From Isoetes taiwanensis (Eukaryota; Streptophyta; Lycopodiopsida; Isoetales; Isoetaceae), in contig JAJEKV010000011.1 of the NCBI GenBank assembly GCA_021234155.1, positions 2,547,294 through 2,611,293 on the forward strand: 64,000 bases of DNA, in the 5' to 3' direction. Within the stretch, counting starts at the first letter, position 1. Each line of letters opens with the position of its first letter. The position numbers and the translations under genes were made by a program. Positions 7,844 through 43,641 of the stretch are shown here, one piece after another. The notes under the pieces were generated by a model. It had not been told where the DNA came from, did no database searches, and saw nothing but the letters and a program-made list of their open reading frames with translations.

Positions 7844-10055
7844 ATGCTTCTTAGAAGGAATAGGGTGGTTGCTCCACCCTTAAATTCAGAAATGCCTCCA
7901 AATCCCATAGATATTCCTATACCTTCTAAGAAGAGCAGGACTGATAGGCATATCCTTGCTGAAAAAGATCCCTAACCAATAAAAATGTTATGGCAGCTGC
8001 TAGAGGTGTCTGATCTATGGAGCAAATGGAAGAAGCTATAGATGCAATTGAAGATGGAGTTCTTTCCATTAGAAAAGCAGCTACCAGATTTGGTATCCCC
8101 CAAACCACCTTGAGAAACCACTTGTATGGTATTAGCCAGCACAAGTTTGGTGCCATTTCTAGGGCTTTAACAGTGCAAGAAGAAGAACAGCTTGCTGAAT
8201 GGGCACTTAAGGCATCTGAGGAGGGAAAAGCTGTTACATTAGATTTGCTTAGGCAGAGAGTTAAAGAAATGGCTATTCATAGGTCTACCTGTTTTGTTAA
8301 TGGGCTGCCAGGTTTGAAATGGTGGAGAGGGTTCAAGAAGAGGCACCCACAAATCACTTTAAGGTCCACTCAATGTGTTGAACTGATTAGAATTTGTGCA
8401 ATGACCTCTAGAAACTTGCAGAATTTTTATTCTACTTTAGAGGGAACCTTGAATGTTATGTCCTTAGATGCATCTAGGATTTGGAACTGTGATGAAACTG
8501 GTGTCCAAGCTGGTAATAGAACAGGGTTAAGGGTTGTGGCCAGGAGAGGGGCTAGAAATGTTACTGAAACTGTGCCTACCAGTAGTGAATGGGTATCCAT
8601 TATGTGTTGTGTGTGAATGCTAATGGGCATAGGCTTCCAAATTTGTATGTGTTTAAGGGGAAAAGAATGAGAGACTTAGACCTCTTGGCTGGATGTGAAG
8701 CTGGTGCAGTTATGGCTTTCCAGAAAAATGCTTGGATTGGATGACGGATGAATTATTTGAGGCATGGTTGGATTTATTCTGCAAAAATGTTCCTGGGGGG
8801 ATTAGTCCAGAAAGGCCACACTTGATGATATGTGATGGCCATGGCAGCCATATCAATTTCTCAGCTTGTCTTAAGGCTAAACAAATGGGTTTGGAAATTC
8901 TGCTGCTTCCACCTTATACTTCCCATAAGCTCCAACCTCTAGATGTTGCTTGTTTCTCTCCTTTTAAAACAGCATTTAGGAGATTAAGGGCTGAGTTGAT
9001 GCATACTAAACGTCATGTGGAACCAACCAAAGAGGATATAGCTGCCATGGTCAGCAAAGCCATTGAACAAGGACTTACCCCCAGAAACATTTCTGCAGGC
9101 TTTCAGAAGACAGGAATTTGGCCTTTCAATTCACAAGCTGTCCTTCCTGATCCTCAAGCAGATAACATGGAGCAAGAACGATCAAGTGTTCAGGTTCAAA
9201 ATGCTGCAGACAATATTTCAGATAATGAAGAATCTGATGACAGTGACAATGAATTGATTGTGGAGGTTCCAGCAAGAGGAAGAGATGAAGAACTTGCTAA
9301 CAATGGTCTTGATGCTCTTGTACAGGCTGCAACAAATGAGGTTGCTGAAGCAGTAGTTGCAGGTGGACGGGATGCTATAGAAGAGGTCCAAGTTCAATCC
9401 AAGTCAAGGAAAAGTAGAGTGCCCAAGTGTTTTGCTCATAAACTCTTGGTCACAGCTGATGATGTGATGCAGGCTAGAGCAGACCATAAGAAACAGGTGG
9501 AAGAGGCAGAAAAGGCTGAAGAGAAAAGGAGATTGATGGAGGAAAGGAAGGTCTTCAAAGAGAAAGAGAGGGTCAGGAAGGAACAGATGAGGAAAGAAAG
9601 GGAGGAAAGAAGAAAGGCAGAGGAAGAGGAAGACTATTGATGATTCAGATGAGGATATTGAGATAATAGAAAGGTTTGAGGCAGAACAAGCAGAACAAGA
9701 ACAAATGGAACATGTAGAACATGAGTTGGAAGACAACCAACTTTCACCTAGGCCATTACAGTTGGAGATTCAGCTTGGTGGTGAAAATGATTGTGAAGAA
9801 CCAAGTTCTCAAGTCCATGTAGCAGGGAACCTCTTCCAAGACAGTCAATTAGATGATAGTGATGAGATTTGTGGTTGTTCACTTGAAGACACACATATCT
9901 GCAGCTATGATGAACATTTAAGGCGGAAGAAATTAAGGGCACAGGTTACAGGTCCTGATTCTGAGTCTGATGTTCCTGTGAACAGAAAAACCATGGCTTT
10001 GGATGACCTGTACAGAAAGGAAGCTAATCTTCATTTAAAGTCTCTTGGACTGTGA
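7844..10055 (+). pseudogene. pogo/Tigger-type DDE transposase, frameshifted
   Basis: This is a Tc1/mariner-superfamily (pogo/Tigger) transposase, a DNA cut-and-paste enzyme. The order is a short N-terminus from ATG 7844 (MLLRRNRVV), a psq-type helix-turn-helix (DGVLSIRKAATRFGIPQTTL, about 8053-8112), a CENP-B-like second DNA-binding part (GLKWWRGFKKRHP), then the catalytic core: IWNCDETGV (first Asp), LMICDGHGSH (second Asp, near 8831) and QPLDVACFSPFK (third acidic residue, near 8936). An acidic and Glu/Lys-rich C-terminus runs to 10055. Lesions include a frameshift near 7972, a TGA just before the ATG at 8017, an extra GT in the TG run near 8610, a duplication-type shift near 8730 and a shift near 9635. 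The triad is visible but the gene cannot make one protein. Confidence 0.88.
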
Positions 10056-16609: not shown

Positions 16610-16790
16610 GTACAGCCTACGAATAAACTTCCAGAAGTCCGCCTGCACTTACTTTCTTAATCCGTTCTGATTCATGTTACAAATGTAATATGATTCTATT
16701 TATACTACTATATTCCATTTGCAAACTAGATTACATCTACCCTCTACAGACGTACAACTAATGCCTGGCATTGCTGGGCACACGTTTCTA

Positions 16791-16900
16791 TAGAATAGAA
16801 TAGAATAGAATAGAATAGAATAGAATAGAATAGAATAGAATAGAATAGAATAGAATAGAATAGAATAGAATAGAATAGAATAGAATAGAATAGAATAGAA
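16791..16900. repeat. (TAGAA)22 microsatellite
   Basis: There are 22 perfect tandem TAGAA units. Long open frames on the minus strand here (ILFYS repeats) are only a product of the repeat. Confidence 0.97.
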
Positions 16901-19228
16901 TATAGAGCAGAATGCCAGTTGCAAAATATTGAAACAATGGCACCAAGATTACAATTAATTTGAATTGTTACATGTGTGAATTGTGGTTGTGGATTATGTA
17001 AATGTGTTATTTGGTGCAACTTATCACTTCATATATAATTCAGTTTGTCATTTTCCTTTGTTTTTGTCCCTGGCTAATATTTCTGCGCCGCAATCTATTG
17101 TAACGGTTATCTGCCACGTATTTTTTGAAACAATATCCTGCTCCGACGCTTCCGACGCCTGGCAACGACCTATACTGTGCTCCCACGATGGCTATGGCGA
17201 TTGCTTCGTCTAAAAAGCTTTGATGCTGGCAGAGCAACTAGATTCGAGGAAGAAGCTCTGACCCAGGCGACCATGGCATGAGCATCTAAGCTCCTTAAAC
17301 GAAGCAGATGCAGAGGATTCTGCCTGTTCTTCTTCTTGGATCGCTGGATTGGATAAACCTGATAAAACTTTGCAGCAAGCAATCTGGTACTATAATCTGG
17401 CGGTACTATAATCTGGCGATTTCTGCAAAAGAACGCATCAAAAAATTTGAAAATTACAAGGGCGAAAGGGTTGCAGTATCTTCTTTTCCGCGGCACTCTG
17501 GGATGGATCGAATGACTTCTAATCCATCATGCTGCCATTGAATCCATCATGCATTCTTTGTTGAATCGAAGGCAGGGGCAAGAGGCAGAGGCATAGGCGG
17601 GTTACCTCTTGGTTATTTCTTGCAAAACCTTTGAAGCAGCCACGCTAAAGCTCCATTGAAGCTCCGCAACCTGCAGGGCTTCTACTAGCTCACAAAATGC
17701 AAGCGATTTAACTCTAAGCTAACGTCTAGCAGTTTAGAGTCTTCTAAACAAAATGACAAAATCTTATCTGAGAGGGTTGAATCCAACTGTAGAACCGAAC
17801 AATCCCTTTGCCTCCCCAGGAATCTGGATAGACCGGTTAAATTAAAGTGAGCTGGGGATTTAAATCCGGATGGCGTTCTCTGCATGGTGCGCTGAGCTTT
17901 GCTTTTGCAGGTACAGATTTGCTGTTGGATTTTTGCAGGTACAGATTTGCGCCATGGCTGGGCCTGGAAGCTATTGTAATTCTGAGGGATACTGGGTGAT
18001 GGTATCTCCTTTTTGAGGTTCCATTGCTTTTCTCAACCTATTTATTTTCAACCTATCGATTTAACGCTCTAATTATTGTTTATTCCAAGTGGCCAATAGA
18101 CAAAGAACAACTAAGTTACTAACAGCTAACTTAAATAGGTTCCAATGTGAGTCGTGCGTTAAGCATTGCTATTTGAAATTGTTGGATGTGCCTAGAAAAT
18201 GGAAAGTCACTTAAAAAAAATATTCCAAGTTGCCATTAGACAAAGAACAACTAAGATATGTTCCAATCTTGAGTCATGCGTTAAGCATTGCCATTTGAAA
18301 TTATTGGATGTGCCTAAAAAATGGAAAGTCGATTTGTTTTTCAATATTGATGCAATATGTAGAAGATGATTAAGAAAATAAGAAAATTGATTTGATTCTC
18401 TAAATAGAAGGTGTGGAAAAGAGAAATGTTCGCGGCGGCCTTGGCCGCCGCGATAAATTTCTTGTAGTAGATAAGTTGCTTTACACACAACAAACTACCT
18501 AGAATGTAGTTGAAATGCATGATATTGCCAAGTGTGAACTTTTGAGCAATTGGATATACGTTATTACAAAACATGAGTTCACAATGGCATGGAACAATGA
18601 CATGCTTCTATCATTAACAAGTTTCCAACTTTGCCTATGTAAACAACGATAGAAAGTTTTGGACCATAATATCCAAATATAATGCAACGTTGCGTTTTGC
18701 TAGAGTGATACCACAATAGTAGCAACACTACAATAAAATTCATCTTATCTTATCTTATCTTACAATATTGACATTATTAGTGTTCAACTTCATAACATTC
18801 CTGTGGACATATTATATTTCAATATTAGTGTTTCACCGAGGATGACGAATCCAATCCATCATTTACAATGTGTTATCTTATGTCCAGCCTCACAAAGAGT
18901 TATAGACTTTAGCTATAGTTATAGACTTTGACTATAGCCTTACCTCAAAATATGCTCAACTTAACCTTTCCTCATTCTGACTTGCTATGGACATGCACTA
19001 CTCAAAGCTCAAAAGGATAGAGATGCACTACTCGAATGGAGCTAGGTTTCTTTTAAAAGGTTGTTAAGGCTTTCAAAAGTTTTTATTATAATAAAACGCT
19101 AAAAAGTTAGATTATTACTGCAAGCTTTTCTAATTGCGGCCAAAACATTTACATTTACAGGCAGACGTTATGGTTCACAAAATACACTCTAGGACTATGC
19201 ATAAAATATAACAATAATACATGTAGAA
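16901..19228. other. No gene; tandem duplication and palindrome
   Basis: I see no coding similarity. A diverged direct duplication of about 135 bp starts near 18081 and near 18220; both copies contain AGACAAAGAACAACTAAG and GCGTTAAGCATTGC. A GC-rich palindrome lies at 18431-18452 and a short (TCTTA)4 run at about 18743-18763. Confidence 0.5.
18431..18452. repeat. GC-rich near-perfect palindrome
   Basis: CGCGGCGGCC and GGCCGCCGCG are exact inverted copies separated by TT. The surrounding sequence is AT-rich, so it stands out. Its function is unknown. Confidence 0.85.
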
Positions 19229-20881: not shown

Positions 20882-23800
20882 ATGGCCTCCTACCTTCTCC
20901 ATGGCACACTTCAAGTCACCATCAACAAAGCTATCCATCTTACTGACAAAAATCGTCACACGGGAAGAGCTCCAAGATTTCTTTGCAAGGTAAGGATGTA
21001 AAGATGTTTTTGATTCAACATTTTGAATGTTTCATATGCTAATTTTGTACCTTAACAATTGATAGGTAGTGGAAGGCATAGAGGAAAGAATTGGGCATGG
21101 CAAGGGTGAAAGCAGGCTGTATGCTACCATAGCTCTTGATAGTTGTCGAGTGGGGCGGACACATACTGCCCAGCATGAACCAGTCAATCCAGTATGGGAT
21201 GAGACTTTGCGCATCCATTGTGCTCATGAGGTTTCTAACATTGTCATTAATGTGAAGGAAGATTTAAGTGTAGGTTCTGTTATAATAGGAGAAGCTAACA
21301 TCCCTATAAAGAGTATTATTTCTGGAGCCAAAGTTGATAATTGGTATGATCTCTATGATGGCAGTAAAAACAAGCTCAAGGGCGGAAGCAAGCTTCATGT
21401 TTCTTTAGTTTTTACCTGTGCAGAAAAGGAACCTTCCTCAGGCCTGAGGATCAGCAAGAGCTTGGAATTTACAGGAGTTCCATTCACATACTTCAAGCAA
21501 CATAGGGGGTGCAAAGTCACATTGTATCAAGATGCACATATGTACGATAATTTCCTTCCACCTATATAAACCTTGCATTTGGCAAGGTATATGAGCCCAA
21601 AAAGTGTTGGCAAGATATGTATGATGCTATGTATAATGCTAAGCATATTATATACATCACGGGCTGGTCAGTTCATACAGAAGTGTTGATGGTCAGTGGC
21701 GATCTGGAGTTACAAGTACATCAAAATTAGGTGAGCTCTTAAAGCGAAGGCTGCCATGGGAGTTGCGATTGTAAAACTTCTAATTTGGGATGACAAAACT
21801 TACGTTTTAAACCTCAAAGGCAGCAATTCTTCTACACTTCAAAAGTTAAGCTTGGGCGTGATGAAGACACGTGATGAAGAAACTCTAGATTACTTTAGTA
21901 ACTTCGGTTTGTGAAATGCGAGAAAATGTCCTCGAAATCCGGGCGATGCCTTTAGAAAGGCAAAAGGGTTTGGTGGGTTTCTCTTATCACCGGAGGGCGA
22001 GTTATTGTGGATGTTCGATAGTGGACTCAAAAACAAGCAATCGTAGAATAATAAGCTTTATTGGTGGCCTGGACCTATGTGGTGGAAGATATGACACTCA
22101 AGATCATTCTCTCTTCCACACTCTCAACACGACTCATAAGAAAGATTTCTACCAGCCATGCTTTCCAAAAGCTGATCTAGCTTTTGGTGGTCCTAGAGAA
22201 CCATGGCATGACATTCATGCCAAAATAGAGGGCCCAGCTGCTTGGGACATTCTTGACAATTTTGAGCAAAGATGGAAAATGCAAGTGGATACAGACCTTT
22301 ATCCTATCAAAAAGCTTAAGCACATAGAATCACCAGATTCTGCGATAGTAGACTCTGAAGCAGATTCCTGGAATGTACAGATTTTTAGGTCGATTGATAC
22401 GGACCGCCGTATTTAGAGTCCGGGATGTGGTGTTTCCAGACTTTTTTTGTGGTGTTTCCGGCCACCCGTTATCAGCCACTGCGCACTTCACAGTTTCAAG
22501 CCCAGAATCAACTGTTTTGGGTCATTTTTTGCTTGATCCGGCCCTATCTGAGCTCAAATCACTTCCTCTCTTCATCAAACTAGTGTTAAAGAGGAAGACA
22601 AAGCGATTGGAAGGGCTTTTGAAGCATTTCAAGCCCTCCAGGGAGCTGCAAGAAGGATCCTACCAAAGATTTTGGCTCCGCCGCGCAGTTTCGCGCTTGG
22701 TTTTTGGCCAGAAATACCACATTTTTGGCCAGAAACACCACTTTTTTTTGGCCAGAAACACCACTTTTTTGGCCGGAAATACCACTTGGCTGATATCGGA
22801 TAGCCGGAAACACCACAAAAAAAGGCCAGAAACACCACATCCCGGACTCTATATACGAGCGTCCGATTGATACAGGCTCTGTAGCAGGACTTGAAACCAC
22901 GCCAACAGAAAAAACACAAAGGGGACTGGTTAATGGCAAAGCATCCTTAATAGACAAAAGCATCCAAGATGCCTATGTTCATGCAATTCGCCATGCAAAG
23001 AATTTCTTTTACATAGAGAACCAGTATTTCATAGGAAGCTCTTTCGCCTGGGTTTCACATAAAAATGCAGGAGCCTTAAATATAATCCCAAGAGAAATAG
23101 CATTGAATGTAAGCAAGATTGAGGCTGGAGAACGCTTTGCAGCATATATTGTCATCGCAATGTGAACAGAAGGTGATCCCCATAGTTCCAAGATGCAACA
23201 TATTTTACAGCTTCAGACTAGAACGATAGAGATGATGTACAAGATACAGATGTCTGGCATGAACCCAAAGGATTACCTGTCCTTCTTTTGCTTAGGAAAT
23301 CGAGAGCCAAAGATTGGGGGCGAATATGTTGCTCCCGTAGTGCGGATCCCGAGTCGGTTACATGGCAGCTCAAGTAAATCGCCGATTCATGTTCTCGTTC
23401 ATTCCAAATTGATGATAGGTAAAATATGATTTTTTTTTTTGCAAAATATCTCCCTTGTCTAGTGTTGTTTCCTAATGCCCCCCCCCCCTTTGTTTTTTCC
23501 CCTAGTTGATGATGAATACATAATTGTTGGATCTGCCAACATTAACCAGCGCTCTATGGATGGCGGTCGTGATACAGAAATTGCTATGGGGGCTTATCAA
23601 CCATCTCAAATCACATCCAAAGATCGACCACCACGTGGGGAAGTGCATGGATTCAGAATGGCTCTCTGGTATGAGCATCTTGGTGCCCTCGATGAGGAGT
23701 TTTTACAACCCCATGATTTAAAATGTCTATGAAAAGTCAACATGATTTCAGATAGGTTGTGGAGGTTCTTCACAGATTCTACCATTACAAATCTTCATGG

Positions 23801-24523: not shown

Positions 24524-24866
<343 letters not shown>

Positions 24867-25340: not shown

Positions 25341-28300
25341 TTAATCCCTGATCACTTGAGCCTTCATCCTTAGCTTCACTCTCGAACGATCCTCCTCCTC
25401 ACTGTCTACAAGTGAGTCTTCATCATCATCTTTTTTGGCCACCTTTCTAGGTTGTTTGTCTAATCCACATGCCGACCTTATTAAAGTTTGAGTGACCATA
25501 CGTAACTTATTAGCAGCAGTCAGAACAAAGTCATATGCAAGAACCTTTACTTCAGCTAGATCTATGACAGCAGTATTTGCTTTGGACTTTGCTCTCTTTC
25601 CCACTCTTGTTTTTACCATCTCCAAAGTATAACTCCCACTGAAAGCATTGGCAGCATTTGTTCTCATCCAGTGCACTTTTAATTGAGTGAGAATTCCATC
25701 CTCTCTTGTTACCTCCAGTACTCTAGCTAGCCAGAATGGCTTCCCAGATTCATCATTATCAGCTGGGACAGCTATGAGCATTTCTTTTCTCGAATCTCGA
25801 GGCCTGAGGCAGGAGACTCGAGCAACTTGTTGTGCCGTGCGTCTGGGGCCAGTGTACATGACTCTGTCATCTTCATCTGAGCTAGCCATTATCTCTACAT
25901 ATTCCTCTTGATTCTCAACTTGCACAGGGAGAGTTTGCCTAGATGGCGGTTGAATGTGGCGGTCTTCGACCTTGTAATGAAGCTTGCAACATGTCACGTT
26001 GCCGAGAAAAAAACTGAGGCCACCATAAAGCATCTGCCTCCCCAAAGTGGTTAGAGCACGATTGAATACTTGTCTCAATATAATCCAATGATTTGTTTGA
26101 GTCAAATGCTCTTCCCTCCTTTTTACTCTTTGTGATTTCTTTCAAGCTTTTTAGAGGCATTTGCTCTGCAGAGAGCATAGAACTAGTATTGGGGATGGTG
26201 CGAATGAATTGAATACCTGCTGCTGGCTGCCACCGCAAGGATGTGGCATATTTCTTTCCTTGTAAGATGGCCTTGCCATCTACAAGTGAAATTTTGATCT
26301 GATGCTGAAATGTAATGTTTCTCAAGGGCACAATAGCACAGTGACCAAGTTGATCTCTTCGATAAATCCATTCCTTGAAATCATAAGTTTCTTCTAATAA
26401 CTCGATGTCTGGACGAGGATTGTAGGAATCTTGGATAACCTCAATCATTGCTGGTAGGCTGAGAGCTTTTTTTCGAGCAAGACATTTAGAGAACCTACTG
26501 AACATCTGATCAATTTGATCGTGTGTATGACCAACAAGCAGGAAACCAATCTTCACCTTCTTGAATATTTGTTTCTCAACTAGCATATATACTGATAAGC
26601 AAACAACGCCTGATTCCTATTTTCTCTTGTCGTGTTGTCTAGCTGAAGATATAGAACCGGTGGTATATGTTCTAGATTGGAAAGAAGCTTATTCAATATT
26701 GTGATAGTGAGATTTGGACCAGCATGAATGTTTGGATAGTTCAAAAATGCCTTGCAAGATAGTTTTCCATTAAATACCATAGCATCAACAACATGCAGGT
26801 GTATGAAATCTTCTTCAGCAGCATCCTTAGGCACATTGACAAAATGTGGTAGGGTGGTCTTCTTTTAGTCCATTCCATCAATAACAACCGATATGTAGTT
26901 GAGTGGTTGTTCCAGTGCTTTCTTCCTATGTTTTGTCAATTTTCTCCTTTCCAAAGATTGTTGTTCTCTGTGCTTGTTCAGTTTCTCTTTCAATTCATCT
27001 GAAATGGAAATATGTTTAGGAAAAAACCTACTTTTAAGTAGAACTAGGCAAGAACACGTTTTGGAAGCTTACTTTTAGTGCGAAGTGTCCTTGCATTTTG
27101 TCTCTGAGCTTTTAATTCAGAGCATGTAGCACAAACAGACATCCGGTGCTTTCTAGGAATGGACACGAGAAAACTCTTTTTTCGAGCCGCGATTGAAGTA
27201 AGAGTAGCGGAGACATGGCGTTCTCGACCTCAACACACATGTCCTTATAATTATCGTGAGACTTCCACGTTTCATGAAGTTGTCACTCAAGTGGTACATG
27301 GGGCTGTTAGGGAGTTTTCGCCAAGACTCCTTAAAGAAACCTTCCATCCGGGGAAACACATTGAAGGGCATGAATTCGGATATACCTCTGAATGGCGGTA
27401 GTCATTAATGCCCGGATTCTTGTCAAGCCTTTTCTTCAGCGGTCAAGTCGTCACATTTGCCCTAAAGCATAAATCAATTTAAAGGCTGTTTGACAGACGG
27501 TGTGGCCACCAGCTGTGTAAGCAAACTTCTCACCATAATCTGGCCTAATATTGAAGGCTAAGTAGCCCCTTTGGTCTAGCAGAGTCATTGAACTGCAACC
27601 TCAATTCCTTTAGTCCAACCTTAAGCAAACAACGTTGAGAACAACAGTGCTTTGTATGTGTTGCCCTCAAGTGAGCCTCGTCCATGAGTTTTTTTCTTCT
27701 TTGGGTTGTACATGCTTTCTTATGTAAGTTTCGCTTAAGATTCTTACTTGCAGGAGCTTTGAGTTCGAACATAGAGTTGTGGCTTTGGTAGGTCCTCGTC
27801 TGAGAGATTAACATGAGATGTTTCTTCGTCTGAGAGATCAACATGAGGTGTACTAGTAGATGCTGAGAGGTTTGATGTGGGCAAGTCCTAGGGGGAGGTG
27901 CTTTCCCTCTCTCTGGGAAAAAGTAATCGAGGTTGGTGACGTAATTGACCAGCTCCGAAGTGTCGAGAACGGGGGAGTTGCGTGTGGCTGCTCCCACTTG
28001 TTGTACCAATTAGCGAAATGGATGGAGTTGGCGTGATTTGCCTCCGGGGAGGCGACCCTCTGATGGACTATGGGAGGCGTCTGAAAATGAAGCTGGAGGA
28101 AGCTCAAGCTTTGTGGTGGAGTAAAATGCATTGGTGGGGGGCAAGCGGCGTTCGGGGAGCCGGGTGTGGTGGAGTAAATTGAACCTGGTGGTGGAAGCCG
28201 AGGTGGTCGTGCTGGAGTAAACTCAACAGAGCTGGGGGTTTGAATATCGGAGGTAGAATATTCGTGGCTACTTCCTGGTGTCAGTTGAGGAGGTGTGAAA

Positions 28301-28365
28301 GTCATTGCAGGAGGAAGCCTGCGAACACGAGTTGGAGGCTCTGCAGTTCTTTTCTCTCGAGCCAT
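25341..28365 (-). pseudogene. DUF7869-like protein, candidate transposase, broken
   Basis: From ATG 28365 it starts MAREKRTAEPPTRVRRLPP, a Pro-rich N-terminus. A Cys cluster (HCCSQRCLLKVG) and a VCQTAFKLIYALG segment follow, then RKHRMSVCATCSELKAQ. An intron (26999-27072) follows, then DELKEKLNKHREQQS, YISVVIDGMD, YLQLDNTTRENRNQ, KIGFLLVGHTHDQID, QMFSRFSKCL and a C-terminal part with KPFWLARVLEV. This series matches a eukaryotic family I believe is catalogued as DUF7869. The three acidic sites (VVIDGMD, QLDN, GHTH..ID) resemble an RNase H-fold triad, which is inference. Lesions are frameshifts near 28000, 27550, 26580 and 25980 and a TAA replacing the Gln after IDGMD at 26865-26867. Its start lies about 25 bp from the first palindrome. 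Confidence 0.78.
26999..27072 (-). other. Intron of the DUF7869-like gene (74 bp)
   Basis: On the minus strand it begins GTAAGC and ends TTTCAG. Removing it joins ELKAQRQNARTLRTK to DELKEKLNKHREQQS as in the family, so the gene has been in a eukaryotic genome and spliced. Confidence 0.75.
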
Positions 28366-28389
28366 ACTCAGAAAGTTAGCGTCACACTG

Positions 28390-28452
28390 TATAAATTTAT
28401 ACGACAGAAGAACAGATGGTATAAATTTATACAGAGATGGTATAAATTTGTA
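28390..28452. repeat. Palindrome cluster A (3 cores)
   Basis: TATAAATTTATA cores lie at 28390-28401 and 28420-28431, with a variant (TATAAATTTGTA) at 28441-28452. They lie just upstream of the DUF7869-like start codon at 28365. Shared spacer words with cluster B (ACAGAGATGG) show that both derive from one repeat unit. Confidence 0.9.
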
Positions 28453-28802
28453 CAGAGAAGGGAAACTTAAGGCGGCAGACTGTATAAGGGTACAAAATTG
28501 CTAGTGGGGTACAATTTTTGGCGAAGAACATATTAAGCACGTAAATAAATGGACACTATGAGAAGACCTGGACCATTAGGACCGTCAAAATCAATCAACG
28601 GCTAAAATTTCTTGATATGAGCCCGATGCTTCGTAACAGCAGCGGCACTCCATTTGTGGCATTTGATCTACTTCACCAAATACAGCAAGCTATGGCTCAT
28701 TGGAATCGGCATCCAAAACTAAGAATCCTTATGAAATTACAGCTTCTACCTGTGCATATTTTGAGCACAATCATGAAAAATTTGATCAACGTTGCCATAG
28801 AG

Positions 28803-29215
28803 TAGAAGCCAATATCTCATAAACTACTTGACGAAATGGATTGCCGTCAGTTCCTATGGATTCATAGTGCAAAAACATTCTAGGACACCAAGTTTCAAGT
28901 AAATCCATTGAGTATTTTCACCGCAAGAGGCCAAAAAACGATTTCTGATATTTTACCGTAAAAGCCTAATATCTTACAAACTACAATACAGAATTTGATG
29001 TCGTCTGTTCCATTGGATTCGTGATGCAAAAGCGTCTTTGGAGGTCAAGTTTCAGATCATTCCATAGAGGATTGATAGTGAAAAAAGCTAAAAAACGATT
29101 TCTGGTATCTATAAGGGAAAAACTTATATCTCACAAATGGCTTCATAAAATCTATGCAAAAACGTATTAGGAGATCAAATTTGAGTGACTTTCGTGAAGA
29201 ATTATTGTGAATCAA
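28803..29215. repeat. Three diverged tandem copies of about 150 bp
   Basis: Copies begin near 28806, 28963 and 29113. Each starts with a word like AATATCTCATAAACTAC, has GTGCAAAAACATT in the middle and, in the first two, ends CAAAAAACGATTTCTG-like. They fill most of the space between palindrome clusters A and B. Confidence 0.75.
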
Positions 29216-29345
29216 CCAAAAAATATTTCATCAGGTGCTTGCACCGCACGTGAAATGCTTATTATGTGCTGAAAAATCGCTGCGTTTAAGCACTTTAAGC
29301 GACGTCCGGACGGTGATTTCTGCTACCCAGTATCAATTTTATGCC

Positions 29346-29419
29346 CATAAATTTATACAGAGATGGTATAAATTTATACAGAGGAGGGCAACATAGAACA
29401 GAAACGGTATAAATTTATA
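29346..29419. repeat. Palindrome cluster B (3 cores)
   Basis: Cores lie at 29346-29357 (first base changed), 29367-29378 and 29408-29419. The cluster sits about 35 bp upstream of the plus-strand ATG at 29453. Confidence 0.9.
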
Positions 29420-29452
29420 CGAAAACTCACAAACACTTGTATTGGAAACTTT

Positions 29453-30067: not shown

Positions 30068-30345
30068 GATGTTTCCAACATAGCAGCTTTTTTGCGACGG
30101 TGTGCCAATTTGAGATCGTTATCAGAAAAGAACGTTCATTGCCATATTATCAAATCTGGGCTTCAAGAAAATGTATTTTTAGGTAACCTGCTTATGCATA
30201 TGTATGGCAAATGTGGAGATATGCAAGATGCATATGCAATGTTTCAGAGTATATCCAATCGAAATCAATCGAAATTATTTTTCCTGGAATATTATGCTTT
30301 CCGTTTATATCAAACATGGACAGTTAACAATTGCTCAGGCACAAG
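30068..30345 (+). pseudogene. PPR protein fragment captured by the Helitron
   Basis: Pentatricopeptide-repeat proteins bind organellar RNA. This fragment reads FLRRCANLRSLSE, KNVHCHIIKSGLQENVF, LGNLLMHMYGKCGDMQDAY and, after a frameshift near 30270, FSWNIMLSVYIKHGQL. That is the N-terminal PPR register of plant PLS-class proteins. A Met-rich open stretch upstream (29880) may be leader sequence in another frame. The many following repeats of a PPR gene are missing, so it is a partial capture. Confidence 0.85.
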
Positions 30346-33441: not shown

Positions 33442-33594
33442 ATCCAACAACATATTCTTGGCACCCGTTTATTTTTTATCCTTTGTACAGAAATTATGAG
33501 AAAAGAGTACAAAATACTGCACGATTTTCTCATTGCAGCTAGAACTTTTATAGGCTCTCAAATTATGCCCAGCAACGCTGGGCACCATTACTAG

Positions 33595-33997
33595 TAAATT
33601 TATACCGATATGGTTCTGGAATGGTATAAATTTATACGCCCTCGAAACCTGGCGGTATAAATTTATACCGATTGCGAGAACAACGGTGATATAAATTTAT
33701 CGCCCTCGAAACGGCGGTATAAATTTATCTGGATTCGAACACTTTTCGGTAAACACTTTCGCGGTATAAATTTATCGCCTCGAGCCTGGCGGTATAAATT
33801 TATACCGATTCGAACACTTTAAAACTCGGTATAAATTTATACCGCGAGTGTTCTGCAACGGTATAAATTTATACCGCTCGTGCTCGAGGCGTATAAATTT
33901 ATACCGCGAGTGTTCTGCAACGGTATAAATTTATACCGCTCGTGCTCGAGGCGTATAAATTTATAACGTTCCAGAACCATATCGGTATAAATTTATA
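33595..33997. repeat. Palindrome cluster C (13 cores), nested inverted repeat
   Basis: Cores start at 33625, 33656, 33690, 33718, 33765, 33793, 33830, 33862, 33892, 33924, 33954 and 33986. A half core at 33595 is completed on the other side of the Helitron. Several are full GGTATAAATTTATACC; three end TTTATC. Spacers with CGAGTGTTCTGCAACGG form a 62-bp tandem unit (33842-33903 and 33904-33965). The outer arms 33601-33620 and 33970-33989 are exact 20-bp inverted copies, so the whole cluster is itself an inverted repeat. Confidence 0.95.
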
Positions 33998-34604
33998 CAG
34001 AAGATAGCATTTAAGGTTTCTATTCTCGTAATGTGCCGAGTGTCTAAAAAAATGTCCTGAACCTTAGTAGTTTAGTAATAATGTTGTGTTTTAAAGGTTA
34101 AATGACACAAATAAAAGGTTTAAATAGCGTGCATTTTAGGTCCTTTAAGCCAGTTTTCTTACAGTTAAAGTGTCCAAAATAGTGGCGAAAAACTGTTCTT
34201 TTGGTGTAAAAATTAGTTTTTTTCTCCTTTTCAGCCAAAAGATCAAGTTCACACAGAGAGGCCAATCATCAAAGGCGAATCCACCAGAGCCACAAACAGA
34301 CGAATTGACAGACTAGACGTGGTATGTACGACACAGGGATGCAAGAGAGCGCAAACCCACAGAGGCGTACCTTTATTTGTGTAACCAGTCAGGGAGGGGA
34401 AAGTTTACCAAAGACGATTACTACCCCGCCGGCGAAATGTTAACCACTACTGCAACAGAAAATGAAGATGAGATTCTTATGAAGTCTTCTATATTCTAAA
34501 CAGTAGAATGCTCCGCATAAGTATGTGCAGACCTAAAGACGTCCATGATTACATGGCAGAAAATTACAAGAATGACTATGTAAGTATGTCTTAGTGGCCT
34601 CACA

Positions 34605-34616
34605 TATAAATTTATA
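34605..34616. repeat. Palindrome core in methyltransferase intron 1
   Basis: One TATAAATTTATACC core lies inside the 69-bp intron 34580-34648 (GTAAGT...CATTACAG). Confidence 0.9.
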
Positions 34617-35672
34617 CCGTCATCTTTTTAATTTACCCTGCATTACAGGACGTAGTGGACATTTTGTCCTCAGTAGTACTTTGTGAAGAAAAAGAAATGG
34701 TCAAGGGTCTTTAGTACCCACTTCCTCAAGAAGATGTCGAGAAGGACGAGGTTTCGGAACAAGAGGAGGAAGAGGAGGAACCAGTGGTGCCAAAGGGGAA
34801 GGGTAGGAAGCATTCCCTGGTAGTAGATACACAGCCTCCTACCAAAAAGAAAAGAACCACAAAAGCCTTGACTATAGATGAGTCAGCAGAAGCTCTACAA
34901 AAGGCTCCTGGAGCTGATATTGTTGTGCAGCCCTCAGACAAGTCAAGTGCCATTCTAAAGAAAGTAAATGAAACCAAACTCCTCAAGCAGACCATTTCTT
35001 TGACACTAAGCACTATTAAAAGGCCACCAAAAAATGAAGATGGGGTCAGAGTGCTTCAGGTCCGAAAGTTGTACGCGGCACATGTGGCTATCCTTAAGCG
35101 AAGAATGAGAAGGAATCCTCATGCGCATGTGTCGCCACTAGTTGTGATGGTTCATAGAAGTCAGTGCAACCAATTAAAAGATTACAAAAAGGCAGACTTC
35201 GAAGATTACACCTATTATGTCCTTGGAGGCACACACAGTTACAAGGCAAGAAAAGAACTATCAAAGGAAGAAAGCCGTAATGAAGTGTGGAAAAGCGTGG
35301 AAGCGCATATTTACGTGGGTGTAACAGACGAAGAGGCAAAAGTCATTGCCGTGAGTCACAATCTCGACAATGACTTTAGACTAAAAATGAGCCTAATAGA
35401 CAAGATCCGTTTCATGCACCAAGAGTACATGGATTTCAAACAAGTGCATGGAGAGGACTTCAAAAAATAAAAGAACAAGCTTCAAGAGCTTCGAGAAGCC
35501 TGTGTGACAGAGTGCTGCCTCAGTTATGATTCTGATAAGAAGCCCATTATGGCTGTGAAACAATACAATAACTGCTTTCAGCTCGCTTTCAGAGATGGTC
35601 AAGTAAGTAAATGCTTTAATTCAGTTTTTTGTAGTATGTTTAGCGTGGTTAGAAGTGTGTATTCAATCACGG

Positions 35673-35746
35673 TATAAATTTATACCGTGCCCAGGTCATG
35701 GTATAAATTTATACCGTGCCCAGGTCACGGTAGGTATAAATTTATA
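35673..35746. repeat. Three palindromes in methyltransferase intron 2
   Basis: Cores lie at 35673-35684, 35702-35713 and 35735-35746 inside intron 35603-35842. They are joined by repeated spacers (CCGTGCCCAGGTCA). Confidence 0.92.
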
Positions 35747-36826
35747 CCGTGACTAGTCACCGTGCGCATTTAGACAGTAGACTGTGCAACAAATTCTCTT
35801 ACGCCATTCAACACTAAACTACTTGCGTTTGTCCATTTACAGGTGTGGGATCTTCAAGAGAGAATTTTTTGTATGTTCGAAGATGGTGAGCTTAAAGAAC
35901 AAGCTAGCTTCGCAGGAAAGAAACCAAAAAAAGGTGGTGAATCAAAACAAAAAATATGAGCATTGTACCCTGGACGCAGTTACAGGGTCTAAAAAGCAAA
36001 GAAATTTTTGCTCGCCTCTTGGAAAAAGTTGTGGCCAAGGAATTCACATTAGACGAGATGGCCAAGGAAGCTAAGACGTAAGCATTTGCTATGCCGTGTT
36101 TTTTTTCTACCTTTTTTTGTCTTACAACATTTTTCCCGTTGCAGTCAGAAAGACATTGTTACCTGCCAGGCCGAGTTAATGAAGCATCTAAACCTAGAGG
36201 ACTGGGAGGAGTGCAAGCTTTTATACCCAAGTTGTACCACAGATAGTATCATCAGAGAGCACGCTGTTAACTTCAGTGGCTGGGTAAGTTTTGCAGAAAA
36301 TATGTTCTGTGTTTGTGCCTTTGTCTCACAGTATTCTTACAGAACAAGAAGAAGGGGCTATCAACTGGATTTTTAAACCTGGTTCGTAGGGCCAAGGAGG
36401 AGAGGCAGAGACTTAAGGCAATTGAACAGGGTAAAGAGGTCGCCACTGGCAGTTTTGACACTACTTATGAGAGATTTACAACATTTGGTCAGGACTGCTT
36501 GTACAGGGTTGTTCAGGGTGATTGCACGAGGCTGGGGACTCTTTTAGACAAGCAAAAGTTTACATTATGCATTGCAGATATTCCTTATGGCTTTAAAATT
36601 AAGGATAGCGCTTTTGACGAGGAGGCTTTCACGCACGTGCAAGTCCGTTCTTTTTTGGATGGCCTGAAGGAAGTGACGATATATGCTAACTGGAGGGTCA
36701 TCATTTTCCATTCCGACCTACAGACGATGTCGGTGCTTAAACCTATGGGAGCGGTCTGTAACGCCGGCTTCGAAAACTGCGTTTGGAAAGCTTTACATTC
36801 AATGTTTTTTTACTGTAACTCCACGG

Positions 36827-36983
36827 TATAAATTTATACCACAGCTGCCTTAAGGTTTAAATTTAAATGGTTGGAACAACCGTAGTATAAATTTATACAG
36901 CAAGGCAATGTTTGTATAAATTTATACGGCTTGCCGCCGTGGTATAAATTTATACAGCAAGGCAACCGTGGTATAAATTTATA
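36827..36983. repeat. Five palindromes in methyltransferase intron 5
   Basis: Cores lie at 36827, 36886, 36915, 36943 and 36972 (12 bp each), with CAGCAAGGCAA spacers. All lie in the intron 36786-37057, whose donor appears mutated (GAAAGC in place of GTAAGC). Confidence 0.92.
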
Positions 36984-37678
36984 CCGCCACACTACTGGGC
37001 TAACTTATTTTCCTTGTTTTCTTTCTACTAATTTTTAATTGCTGTATTGTTTGGCAGGCTTAAAACAAACGTCAAGGGTCATGGTGGTGGTCCGCGCTTA
37101 GTGAGTTGTTTCGAGCATTTTCATATAGGTTTTTACAGCGCGGACGCCAAAAAAACCATGGTTCATTTCAATACGCAGAATGAGAAGACTCCTCCCTGCA
37201 ATGCTTTTCAGTTCCCGGCTGTTCTGCAGAAATTAAGAGACCACAGCGACAAGGCGCTGTGGTGTCCCATTATCAGAAGCCACAAAGGCTTATTAATAAT
37301 TTGATACAGTGGTTTTCTTGCCCTGGAGACTGGATCTTACATGCATTTTCTAGATCAGGCACCACAGCAGTTTGCGCCCTTAAGCAGGGGCGCAATGTCG
37401 TCTCCGTCGACATAGACCCAGATAAAGTAAGTTTCATCAGGACCAGGATAAGCTCTTGTGAATCCTTTCCTGATGAAAACGAGGAACTGGGAGCAAAGAA
37501 CAGTGCCAGCGATGTTAAAGGCACTTATACAGAAATCTAGCCTCCACTTACAGGGAGAAAAGATGAGGAGGTGGAGTTTGTCGACTTGGAGCCTGTGCAG
37601 CCTGTGCCCGAGAAACCGGCTGTGCCGGTAGGTACGAGAGTCCCGTGGACTGGGAAGAGCCACCTCCCCCACCTCCCG

Positions 37679-37690
37679 TATAAATTTATA
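37679..37690 (+). repeat. Palindrome supplying the methyltransferase stop codon
   Basis: The last core overlaps the end of the coding sequence. In the frame ending DWEEPPPPPPV, the GTA and TAA codons (37678-37683) come from the palindrome itself. Confidence 0.7.
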
Positions 37691-37775
37691 CAGACAGAGT
37701 TATTAACTACTTCCATTGTAAACTATGTGCTAAGAATTATAATATACTAGTAATGGTGCCCAGCGTTGCTGGGCA

Positions 37776-39688
37776 TAAGTTAGGAGCTTGTAAATGTTTT
37801 GGCTGAAATGAGAAAAACGTGTAATAATAATCCAACTTTTGTAGTTTTTATAACCAAACCCCGCATTGTTGGGCTACGCTTGGACCCTATCAATGAAACA
37901 AACGCAATGGAAACGTAGTGGGAACATGTAAAGGATTTTTAACATTAGAGAGGAATTGATAATGATCACTCAAAAATACTACCTTCATAAAAATGTGTGT
38001 TATGGGATTGTATGTCTATGCAACATTTTAAATGTCTAAATTACGCACTATTATACACACTATTACGCACAGCCTATTACACATATAGTGCGTAATGGGG
38101 TGTGCATAATAGGGTGTGATATGAATAAGGTGCCATGTTGGATGGGCTTTTCATTTTTCTAACACATGGATTGTGTGATAGCTCGGGATGATTCTTATTA
38201 TGTTGCATTTTAAGGTATAAAGCTTCATTTCATTAGCTTCCCCCCTTTTTCTTTTTCTTTTTTTTTTTAAGTTGGAACTCTCAATGAATTTGTTGGATAT
38301 TTAAACAATACTATTATGAATAAATTATGACGCCCAACATTTGGCGTAAGTTTGAAACTTATAGATATTGCAAAAGGTGAGCATGCATTGATGGTGTTAG
38401 AAAGGATATGGCATATTTCTTCTCATGTGAAAGTGCTGGCGCTTAGAAAATATTTTTTCTCATATGATGACGGTCCTTAAATATGGTAATATCTTAAACT
38501 CAAGGCGAATGGGAAGGAAATTTAGGTTCAGTCTTGCTTTGTTTAATATTGCTTTGTGACATGTGAGTTTAAGTTTAGTTGCAAATTTTCTTAGTTAGTT
38601 ATAAAATAGATAATTCATTTGCCTAAGAGCCTGCATGTCTCTTATCTTAGAGCCTATCTTAGAGCCTATATGCCCCCTATTTGTTACTTTGAAATGAATT
38701 ATTAATCCTAGAGATTTGCCATTCCTTGTTTTTGTAGTTCCTTGAAGAAGTGCATGCAAGGGGTTAAAGGTGGTTGTCCATTCTAATGCATTTATGTAGA
38801 GAATAACATCAACATTAAAAAATATACAATTCTTGTTGAAACGATCTCTTGGTAGTCCATAACAACTGCACTGTGCATTGCATAATTCTAACAAAATCAA
38901 ACTTTAATCACTGGTATACTAACATAATCGCAAGTTCTACCGTACACTTGAGAACTGCATTGGAACATATGTCCCCTTGCAATCTTTTATCATAATAGGC
39001 AGGCTTTTTGTGGTCTGGTTTCCATTCGGTTAACCCAACATAATAGCCCAACATAAGAATGATAAGAATAAAAAATATTTAGACAAAGTTGGCAAAGTTG
39101 ACACACTATCTGCCCTTAATCTTCTTCTATTTGATCTGAGGTATAAAGCATCAACCACAATTCGTCCTTCACCTTCATGTCAGAACTTTCACACTGGACC
39201 TGTACTAAGAAAAAATGTAAACATAAATAGAAGAAATGAACTCCAGTAGCAAACAGATGTGTTGAGTTTTACGCATAGGCATGTCAAGTTTCAAAATTCA
39301 CTTGAAATATTAGAAGCTCAACTATAAAGAAATTGAGATAGCCATCATGCACATGACAATAGAATGACTGTGCGAGATTCAAATCAACCTTATTGGATCT
39401 CAGAAAAATGCTTTTATAAATACAGAGAAAGATGATTGCTTTAACATTTTTTAGAAGCTTTCAAACTGCAACTTATATATTGCATTTTTGGGTTGCCCCT
39501 AAGGGGGCAAGCCCTTGTTTACGTGGGTTTATGGCATATTCCCGGTATATGCCAGTATATGCCAGGAATATGCCAATGACCGCTAAAAACCTGCTATTGG
39601 GGGTAAATTGGCGGTGGCCGCTGTTGCTGTGCAGCTATTTGGAAACCGGGTAACCTGATGAAGCGAAAAAGCGTCGAGAGCTTTAGCT
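37776..39688. other. Helitron interior, no gene seen
   Basis: AT-rich and unassigned. A hairpin-prone block around 38042-38100 has ATTACGCACTAT and its near complement ATAGTGCGTAAT. A second GC-rich stem, TTGCCCCTAAGGGGGCAA, is at about 39494-39511. Confidence 0.45.
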
Positions 39689-41172: not shown

Positions 41173-43641
41173 ATGCTAGAACATGCAGATTGCTGTATTT
41201 GGCTGCATAGATTTGTTTGGTATGCCAAATTATTATCCATCTGTGTGGCATGCATCTATTTTCTAGTTTTGTGTATAAGCTGTCATTCACGGTGATGTTG
41301 CAGGCCTGAGGCATCGAAGGCGATGATACTGTTGAGCAGTGGAGGCACTTGAAGGATACCATGCTAACAGCTTTGAGGTAGGTTACATAGATTATGTAGA
41401 TAGGATTATTTGCAATCTGCATAAGCTAGTGCTGTTAATGCATCTATGGCGCACATTCCTTTTGAGTCCCTGTAGCCCGAGAGTTTTATTCTGTATTGAG
41501 CTACGTATTTGGATAGGCTTTCTCATCGTCATGATGTACCAAGACTCTGCCAGTATATGATTTGCAGAATTTGTACAGTGCCACTTTGTTGTGATTGCCA
41601 TTTTTACACATTGTTGCCCTTGTGGTTTTTTGCAAGGCAGAGAAGTCCAAGGAGAGCCTTTCTTAGAGCATAGACATCTTGGGACTTATCTGCCAAATTT
41701 GAACAATGCCATTTTGCTGTGATGATTTGCCAAATTTGAACAATGCCATTTTGCTGTGAAAGACACTTAGATGTTTATTTAGGAAAGATAAAATATATGC
41801 TAGCTTACTAGTTATTGTGAGTGGCTATTGGTTAAGTGGAGTTGCTATTTAGATGTAGATATTTGCATACTATTTAAGGTGATGATTTGCAGAATTTGTA
41901 CAATGCCACTTTACCATAAAAAGGATTTAGATCTTTATTTAGCAAAGCTAGAACATTCACTAGATTAATAGTTGTTGTGGTTGGTCATTGCCTGGCTTAT
42001 TTGCTCTTATGGCTGTAGATATCTTTTCGGGATAAACCTTGCCTATTGAAGCAGGTTGAATGCTTTACTTTCCCTACGATACATCGAAGGGTGGGCTTTT
42101 GTTGTGACGGGCAAATGAAAAACAGAGGGAATGAGTGTTGAGAAGAGAGAGAAGAAAGATAGGTTAACTGAAAAGCGTCGTAGGAAGTACGCTGAGTTGC
42201 CTGCTGAGTTGCCTGGGACAAAGCAAAATGAACTGAGACAAAAATGCTGAGAGTACACAAGCAGGCATAGAGAATGAATTGTGAATGCTCCAATGTAGAA
42301 AAGAGTAGAGGGGCCAGTCCGCGATGCTCTGGGCCATCTGGCAGGTGAACAATGGGACGATGGCTCCATTTCAATGATTATGGATCAGTTGGCCATGGCG
42401 GCGATGGAGCAAATGCTTCATGCTAGAACAGGCAGATTGCTGTATTTGGCTACATAGATTTGTTTGGTATGCCAAATTATTATCCATCTGTGTGGCATGC
42501 ATCTATTTTCCAGTTTTGTGTATAAGCTGTTATTCATAGTGATGTTGCAGGCCTGAGGCATCGAAGACGATGATACTGTTGAGCAATGGAGGCACTTGAA
42601 GGATACCATGCTAACAGCTTTGAGGTAGGTTACATAGATTATGTAGATAGGATAATTTGCAATCTGAGGAGAAAAGCTGCATAGGCTAGTGCTGATAATG
42701 CATCTATGGCACACATTCCTTTTGATTGTCTCCCTGTAGCCCGAGAGTTTTATTCTGTATTGAGCTACGTATTTGGATAGGCTTTCTCATCGTCATGATG
42801 TACCAAGACTCTGCCAGCAGAATTTTTACAGTGCCACTTTGTTGTGATTCCCATTTTAACACATTATTGCCCTTGTGGTTTTTTGCAAGGCAGAGAAGTC
42901 CAAGGAGAGCCGTTCTTAGAGCATACACATCTTGGGACTTATCTGCGTGCTATTCCAGGTGATGATTTGCCAAATGCCGTTTTGCTGTGAAAAACACTTA
43001 GATGCTTGTTTAGGAAAGATAAAATATATGCTAGCTTACTAGTTATTGTGAGTGGCTACTGCTTAAGCGGAGTTGCTATTTAGATGTAGATATTTGCATA
43101 CTATTTAAGGTGATGATTTGCAGAATTTGTACAATGCCACTTTACCATAAAAAGGATTTAGATCTTTATTTAGCAAAGCTAGAACATTCACTAGATTAAT
43201 AGTTGTTGTGATTGGTCATTGCCTGGCTTATCTGCTCTTTTGGCTATAGATATCTTTTCGGGATAAACCTTGCCTACTGAAGCAGGTTGATTGCTTTACT
43301 TTCCCTACAATACATCGAAGGGTGAGCTTTTGTTGTGATGGGCAAATGAAAAACAGAGGGAATGAGTGTTGAGAAGAGAGAGAAGAAAGATAGGTTAAAT
43401 GAAAAGCGTCGTAGGAAGTACGCTGAGTTGCCTGGGACAAAGAAAAATGAACTGAGACAAAAACGCTGAGAGTACGCAAGCAAGCGTAGAGAATGAATTG
43501 TGAGTGCTCCAATGTAGGAAAGAGTAGAGGGGCCAGTCCGCAATGCTCTGGGCCATTTGGCAGGTGAACAATGGGACGATGGCTCCATTTCGATGATTAT
43601 GGGTCGGTTGGCCATGACGGCAATGGAGTGACTGCTTCGGT
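41173..43641. repeat. 1.25-kb tandem duplication
   Basis: Unit 1 (41173-42419) and unit 2 (42420-about 43641) are direct copies, differing by scattered substitutions and small indels. Both start with ATGCTAGAACA and both contain TATCTTTTCGGGATAAACC and CAATGGGACGATGGCTCC. No coding similarity was recognised in either. Confidence 0.88.

Follow-up and report, generated by a model that had tools for sequence, protein, structure and literature searches.

A decayed element in Isoetes taiwanensis with a bacterial-type DNA methyltransferase gene, a probable ParB-like domain, and an array of palindromes

Proteins that combine a ParB-like domain with a DNA methyltransferase have been reported from algal transposons. 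The available text of PMC12477816 describes one in the transposon Sola1-1 (Sola1-1_Ec32) of the brown alga Ectocarpus, reports green and red algal transposon cases with reference to Iyer 2011 and Petroll 2025, and proposes that the transposon encoding such a protein may itself be bound and modified by it. Because of these cases, ParB-methyltransferase transposon proteins are a known kind. Here, we describe a locus of similar appearance in 64,000 nt of DNA from Isoetes taiwanensis (contig JAJEKV010000011.1, positions 2,547,294 to 2,611,293 of the forward strand; “the window” below is this whole stretch), in which a broken methyltransferase gene with five introns lies between inverted repeats and among palindromes. 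On balance, we lean toward reading it as the decayed remnant of a transposon with an accessory enzyme that bound the palindromes of its own element and methylated their adenines, and as a plant relative of the algal ParB-methyltransferase proteins. If this is true, the range of these proteins widens from algae to a plant genome. Among the matches listed in our literature search, no title or abstract beginning referred to a protein of this type from a transposon of a land plant.

Compared by description, as far as the available text goes, Sola1-1_Ec32 and the green and red algal proteins share with the Isoetes gene what is probably the same domain pair, the transposon setting, and a position on the strand opposite a transposase-like gene. 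The Isoetes locus differs in its plant host, in having a DUF7869 gene as the linked gene, and in palindromes borne by introns. Membership in the algal group would place both domains in one transposon protein; here, the methyltransferase and the inverted repeats are present and the ParB half is weak. As for Sola1/EnSpm, the DUF7869 gene nearby is the only transposase candidate, and its superfamily is not established. Bacterial-type enzymes are also described outside transposons. The bdelloid rotifer N4CMT is likewise an N6_N4_Mtase with introns in a eukaryote; by its description in the available text of PMC8885841, it is a host gene with a chromodomain and an SPPY motif, whereas the Isoetes gene carries DIPY and a probable ParB-like domain and sits in a transposon, with no chromodomain among Pfam matches up to E 1 in the read-through model. 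That text states that the rotifer enzyme lacks eukaryotic homologs. The Marchantia DN4MT1 N4-methylcytosine (4mC) enzymes are also amino-methyltransferases of bacterial origin in a plant nuclear genome but, as described in the available parts of PMC8885841 and PMC8566409, are sperm-specific host genes without extra domains. An earlier note on this DNA called such fusions typical of phages, plasmids, and bacterial mobile elements; given the algal transposon cases and this liverwort enzyme, novelty for eukaryotes is not supported.

Translation of the region gives a six-exon, five-intron gene on the + strand at ~34.2-37.5 kb. The parts of the element, in window positions, are as follows.

33515..33600, no strand: left inverted-repeat arm, 86 nt, 85% complementary to 37741-37826; holds the palindrome TGCCCAGCAACGCTGGGCA
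33623..33999, no strand: 12 palindromes of the 5' array, variants of GGTATAAATTTATACC, at intervals of 28-47 bp
34235..34579, + strand: exon 1, decayed, with stops in all frames and a GTAAGT donor at its end
34580..34648, + strand: intron 1, with 1 palindrome inside
34649..35602, + strand: exon 2, with a charged N-terminal region and the probable ParB-like domain, interrupted by stops in frame at 34712 and 35468
35603..35842, + strand: intron 2, with 3 palindromes inside
35843..36077, + strand: exon 3, with one internal frame change
36078..36144, + strand: intron 3, GT(AAG)...AG
36145..36283, + strand: exon 4, whose frame runs on from exon 3 and into exon 5
36284..36342, + strand: intron 4, GT(AAG)...AG
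36343..36803, + strand: exon 5, methyltransferase start, motif IV ADIPYG
36804..37057, + strand: intron 5, with 5 palindromes inside
37058..37540, + strand: exon 6, methyltransferase remainder, motif I FSRSGTT, one frame change, stop codon at 37538
37677..37692, no strand: 3' palindrome copy
37741..37826, no strand: right inverted-repeat arm, partner of 33515-33600

Introns 1-4 have GT(AAG) donors and AG acceptors, and intron 5 has a weaker GTTTTT donor. The four or more canonical introns that the earlier note had claimed are thus present, with this fifth one in addition, and the motifs it named were found in the exons (VLGGTHSYKAR in exon 2, ADIPYGF in exon 5, FSRSGTTAVCALKQ in exon 6). Its element, set at 34235..37683, was too small, as the inverted repeats lie farther out on both sides. 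The reading frame is kept at 5/5 junctions, with exons 2 and 3 joined in one frame and exons 3-6 in another after the frame change within exon 3. Two in-frame stops, frame changes in exons 3 and 6, and the decay of exon 1 leave the gene broken, and the present copy codes for no full enzyme.

Judged by its sequence, this gene encodes a beta-class DNA amino-methyltransferase, an assignment far above chance. In the read-through model, Pfam N6_N4_Mtase (PF01555) matched residues 631-717 at 42.1 bits (cut-off 26.7), and NCBIfam adenine-specific methyltransferases matched at E 1e-8, far under the curated cut-offs of those models. Solved relatives are MboIIA (E 2e-5), RsrI, and CcrM, and PHROG methyltransferases matched at E 1.7e-12 across residues 53-286 of a 288-residue part. 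By tblastn, 92 phage records matched at E <= 0.01 (best 24.0% over 82%) and 1958 plasmid records at E <= 0.1 (best 27.3% over 83%). We also built an alignment of ten phage proteins (A1), comprising two scanned for ParB_N and eight long tblastn relatives of AcaML1 gp25, their ParB part unscanned by Pfam; a ninth, unannotated relative was excluded. Against A1, hhalign gave 97.5% and E 5.5e-12. A profile of the methyltransferase half of A1 scored the gene at 42.6 bits in hmmsearch, and the runner-up among 2002 sequences, including 2000 shuffles, reached 6.2. Phage ParB-N6_N4 methyltransferases such as AcaML1 gp25 and M.PhiCh1-I have the domain order that is probable here, and the methyltransferase aligns from motif IV to motif I; identity is only 26% over 205 columns, and the Isoetes gene differs from them in its introns, long charged N-terminal region, and longer inter-domain linker.

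Motif IV stands ahead of motif I, which is the beta-class order. It reads DIPY where the family has (D/N/S)PP(Y/F), and a Klebsiella phage methyltransferase in the alignment likewise has DIPY. Some results count against the reading given at the outset. Motif I is damaged in the present copy and reads FSRSG vs the family FxGxG, with R replacing the first G, which is perhaps a result of decay. Moreover, neither the full protein model (7994 candidates compared) nor the methyltransferase part (1658 candidates) had a protein-database match at E 0.001, and the ParB exon had none at E 0.01 (416 candidates). One possible reason for these empty searches is that plant genes split by introns are poorly covered in the database. 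The ParB exon likewise had no tblastn match in phages at E 0.1; in viral scans, it gave 246 pattern matches and exon 5 gave 20, of which 0 were confirmed. Some of the top tblastn methyltransferase matches had been expected to be ParB fusions, and 0/6 scanned among the first 8 regions were; of the 4 scanned among the next 9 regions, two had ParB_N, at 32.5 and 23.7 bits (cut-off 26.3).

Since the methyltransferase resembles phage and plasmid enzymes, we considered whether the gene comes from contaminating DNA of bacteria or phages or from a recent insertion of bacterial DNA. This is very improbable, and we reject it because of the introns and the plant neighbors. All five introns keep the frame, and palindromes lie inside introns. 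The guanine-plus-cytosine content of the element is like that of the remaining window. To its left in the same window are a plant-type phospholipase D gene, whose closest solved relative is phospholipase D alpha 1 (6kz8, E 2.7e-42; presumably the Arabidopsis protein), a C2 domain, and Copia, LINE, and pogo-type elements; on the right, no ORF (open reading frame) scanned had a Pfam match. By its left-hand neighbors, the DNA around the element looks like plant nuclear DNA, in agreement with the earlier note's placement of the methyltransferase gene inside a mobile element of a plant nucleus. That note had offered close homologs confined to intron-less bacterial contigs as the mark of contamination, and the anatomy of the locus speaks against it.

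The region upstream of the methyltransferase is probably a ParB-like domain. We judge it so because its landmarks are colinear with those of ParB and because the pairing with such a methyltransferase is published, ParB being a known partner of these enzymes in phages and algal transposons. In hhalign, the flank, a hydrophobic strand, VLGGTHSYKARKEL on the AGHxR box, and TDEEAKVIAVSHN on the next N box fall in order; the G-x-x-R box reads GGTHSYKA without its arginine, and profile support is weak. The stretch scored 25.6 against the whole of A1 (E 0.0082, probability 4.8) and 25.8 against the ParB part of A1 (E 0.0019, probability 14.2), the latter score being reached by 0/300 shuffles. Its only PHROG matches are two ParB-like families, at the expected place (E 0.014 and 0.077).

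It is nonetheless conceivable, though we think rather unlikely, that there is no ParB domain and that the stretch ahead of the methyltransferase forms an unrelated domain specific to the lineage, and a number of observations pull in that direction. Pfam found no ParB match in the stretch; its sole match there was a sub-threshold IgA-protease autotransporter domain (E 0.005 and 0.012). The Pfam search of the spliced model proposed in the earlier note, which expected both domains, returned N6_N4_Mtase and not ParB. Among 79 window ORFs of at least 100 residues used as hhalign decoys, a Copia gag ORF tied at 25.2 and the element's own raw ORF reached 25.1. With a plain hidden Markov model (HMM), the stretch obtained 5.3 bits and ranked 3/2002, two shuffles scoring above it. 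A single-sequence AlphaFold model of the ParB exon was unusable (predicted local distance difference test score, pLDDT, 38). Set against these results are the PHROG matches, the colinear landmarks, among them GGTHSYKA and the N box after it, and the known partnership. Of the ParB-methyltransferase fusion reported in the earlier note, the methyltransferase half stands far above chance, while the ParB half is colinear but statistically weak.

The earlier note did not mention the palindromes that run through the element. Allowing no more than 3 mismatches, we counted 27 copies of GGTATAAATTTATACC across the window vs 0.31 expected. The core ATAAATTTAT is likewise found 27 times, and 22 of these cores belong to the element: the 719-bp 5' region has 12, intron 1 has 1, intron 2 has 3, intron 5 has 5, and the 3' side has 1. 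None lies in the 2676 bp of exons (these counts used bounds for introns 3 and 5 that are 2-3 bp off the final ones). When the three internal clusters were placed at random, all fell in introns in 209/200000 trials, the intron bounds having been defined by splice sites and frame, independently of the motif. The median core spacing is 31 bp (17 spacings < 65 bp). Helical phasing is poorly borne out, as the phase vector of 21 spacings was modest (0.46 at 10.0, 0.41 at 10.5, and 0.36 at 11.0 bp), without a peak at 10.5 bp. Within the element, 19 palindromes are exact, 3 have one mismatch, and 2 have two; we rejected this intactness as proof of selection, as ~2% change fits neutral decay. A search of a prokaryote genome collection gave 91 stretches with the exact 16-mer, one site in each of the 80 listed, and no paired palindromes were found in viral contigs.

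The array supplies a physical target for the self-binding and self-modification proposed in the available text of PMC12477816. In our favored reading, the protein of intact copies would bind the palindromes and modify adenines in or near them. The mark could keep the element's DNA expressible, visible to its transposase, or outside host silencing, and DUF7869 would be the likely transposase that moves the methyltransferase element. Self-methylation, as the earlier note proposed, is plausible for intact copies. We infer a horizontal origin of the gene, for which direct transfer from bacteria, with mobilization following the gain of introns, would be one possible course. N6-methyladenine (6mA) would be the likelier mark, because the 12-bp core has no cytosine and the catalytic motif begins with D; the D of DPPY, as opposed to SPPY, is the residue of bacterial N6-adenine enzymes, according to the available text of PMC8885841. 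With the array as a concrete candidate target, the self-methylation idea becomes testable with long-read data. The presence of 6mA in plant DNA is a matter of debate, on which a transposon-encoded enzyme would bear by giving the mark a defined source.

We can also imagine, with much less confidence, a plant transposon family with its own bacterial-type epigenetic system. In such a family, the ParB-methyltransferase would load on regularly spaced, perhaps helically phased, palindromes of promoter and introns, write adenine methylation, and mark the element for transcription or transposition, in a system shared in trans with a DUF7869 partner.

A simpler account, which we find possible but somewhat doubtful, is that only the transposase uses the palindromes, and that the methyltransferase travels as a passenger and acts on unrelated targets. 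Plant CACTA elements usually have subterminal sites for their transposase, and here the densest part of the array lies directly inside the left inverted repeat, with the palindrome also found upstream of the DUF7869 gene. However, 9/22 sites are in the introns of the methyltransferase gene, distant from the ends.

The features of the DUF7869 gene and its flank are these.

25341..28365, - strand: broken DUF7869 gene (Pfam DUF7869), a candidate for the transposase of this transposon family
28388..29421, no strand: five exact palindrome cores on the upstream side of the DUF7869 gene, with a near-copy at 28439

On the raw ORF, Pfam DUF7869 scored 97.1 bits, and on a piece in which two frames were joined, 161.2 bits. 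The residues DGMD, LQLDN, and GHTHDQID of the domain resemble what we take to be the pattern of a DDE-type triad, and DUF7869 is perhaps an uncharacterized DDE-type transposase; our literature search found no paper mentioning the domain. The window's other five cores all lie within 1.1 kb upstream of this gene, ~5 kb from the element. The case for joining the two genes is weakened by the fact that this shared palindrome is their sole link; sequence extending to 33.5 kb, compared with the DUF7869 flank, matched it in inverted orientation no better than 61% across 119 nt (E 0.044). The genes may belong to separate elements of a single family or to a composite. A single composite element of ~12.5 kb (25.0-37.8 kb), with the two genes on opposite strands as in Ectocarpus Sola1-1, seems unlikely to us. 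The genes are divergent and have the palindromes in common, and the Ectocarpus gene is likewise on the strand opposite its transposase (PMC12477816, available text). Yet the inverted repeats enclose the methyltransferase gene alone, a comparison of 24.0-25.3 kb with 37.7-38.6 kb gave a best match of only E 0.19, and a PPR-like fragment below the Pfam cut-off (30140-30270, + strand) intervenes.

Both inverted arms of the methyltransferase element carry the palindrome TGCCCAGC(AAC or GTT)GCTGGGCA. The certainty of the element's outer ends is limited by the similarity of 37789-37851, which covers part of the right arm and sequence beyond it, to 19091-19153 (82.8%), and no target-site duplication was established. 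Short stretches at 16756-16801, 18860-18888, and 19091-19153 resemble parts of the inverted repeat in a common orientation, the first two weakly; they are perhaps the remains of a related element.

Elsewhere in the window, a pogo-type transposase at 8014-10055 (+ strand) has HTH_psq, Tc5 HTH, and DDE_1 domains and a charged C-terminal tail. In the region of the phospholipase D gene, at 22400-22865, a 79-nt inverted repeat (arms 22400-22478 and 22787-22865) surrounds a short tandem array (22701-22787) and is perhaps a small insertion in that gene. A tandem duplication of ~1.25 kb at 41173-43638 is 90.7% identical, and two ORFs scanned there had no Pfam match. Finally, two microsatellites are perfect, (ATAGA)22 at 16790-16902 and (CTAT)35 at 24524-24665.

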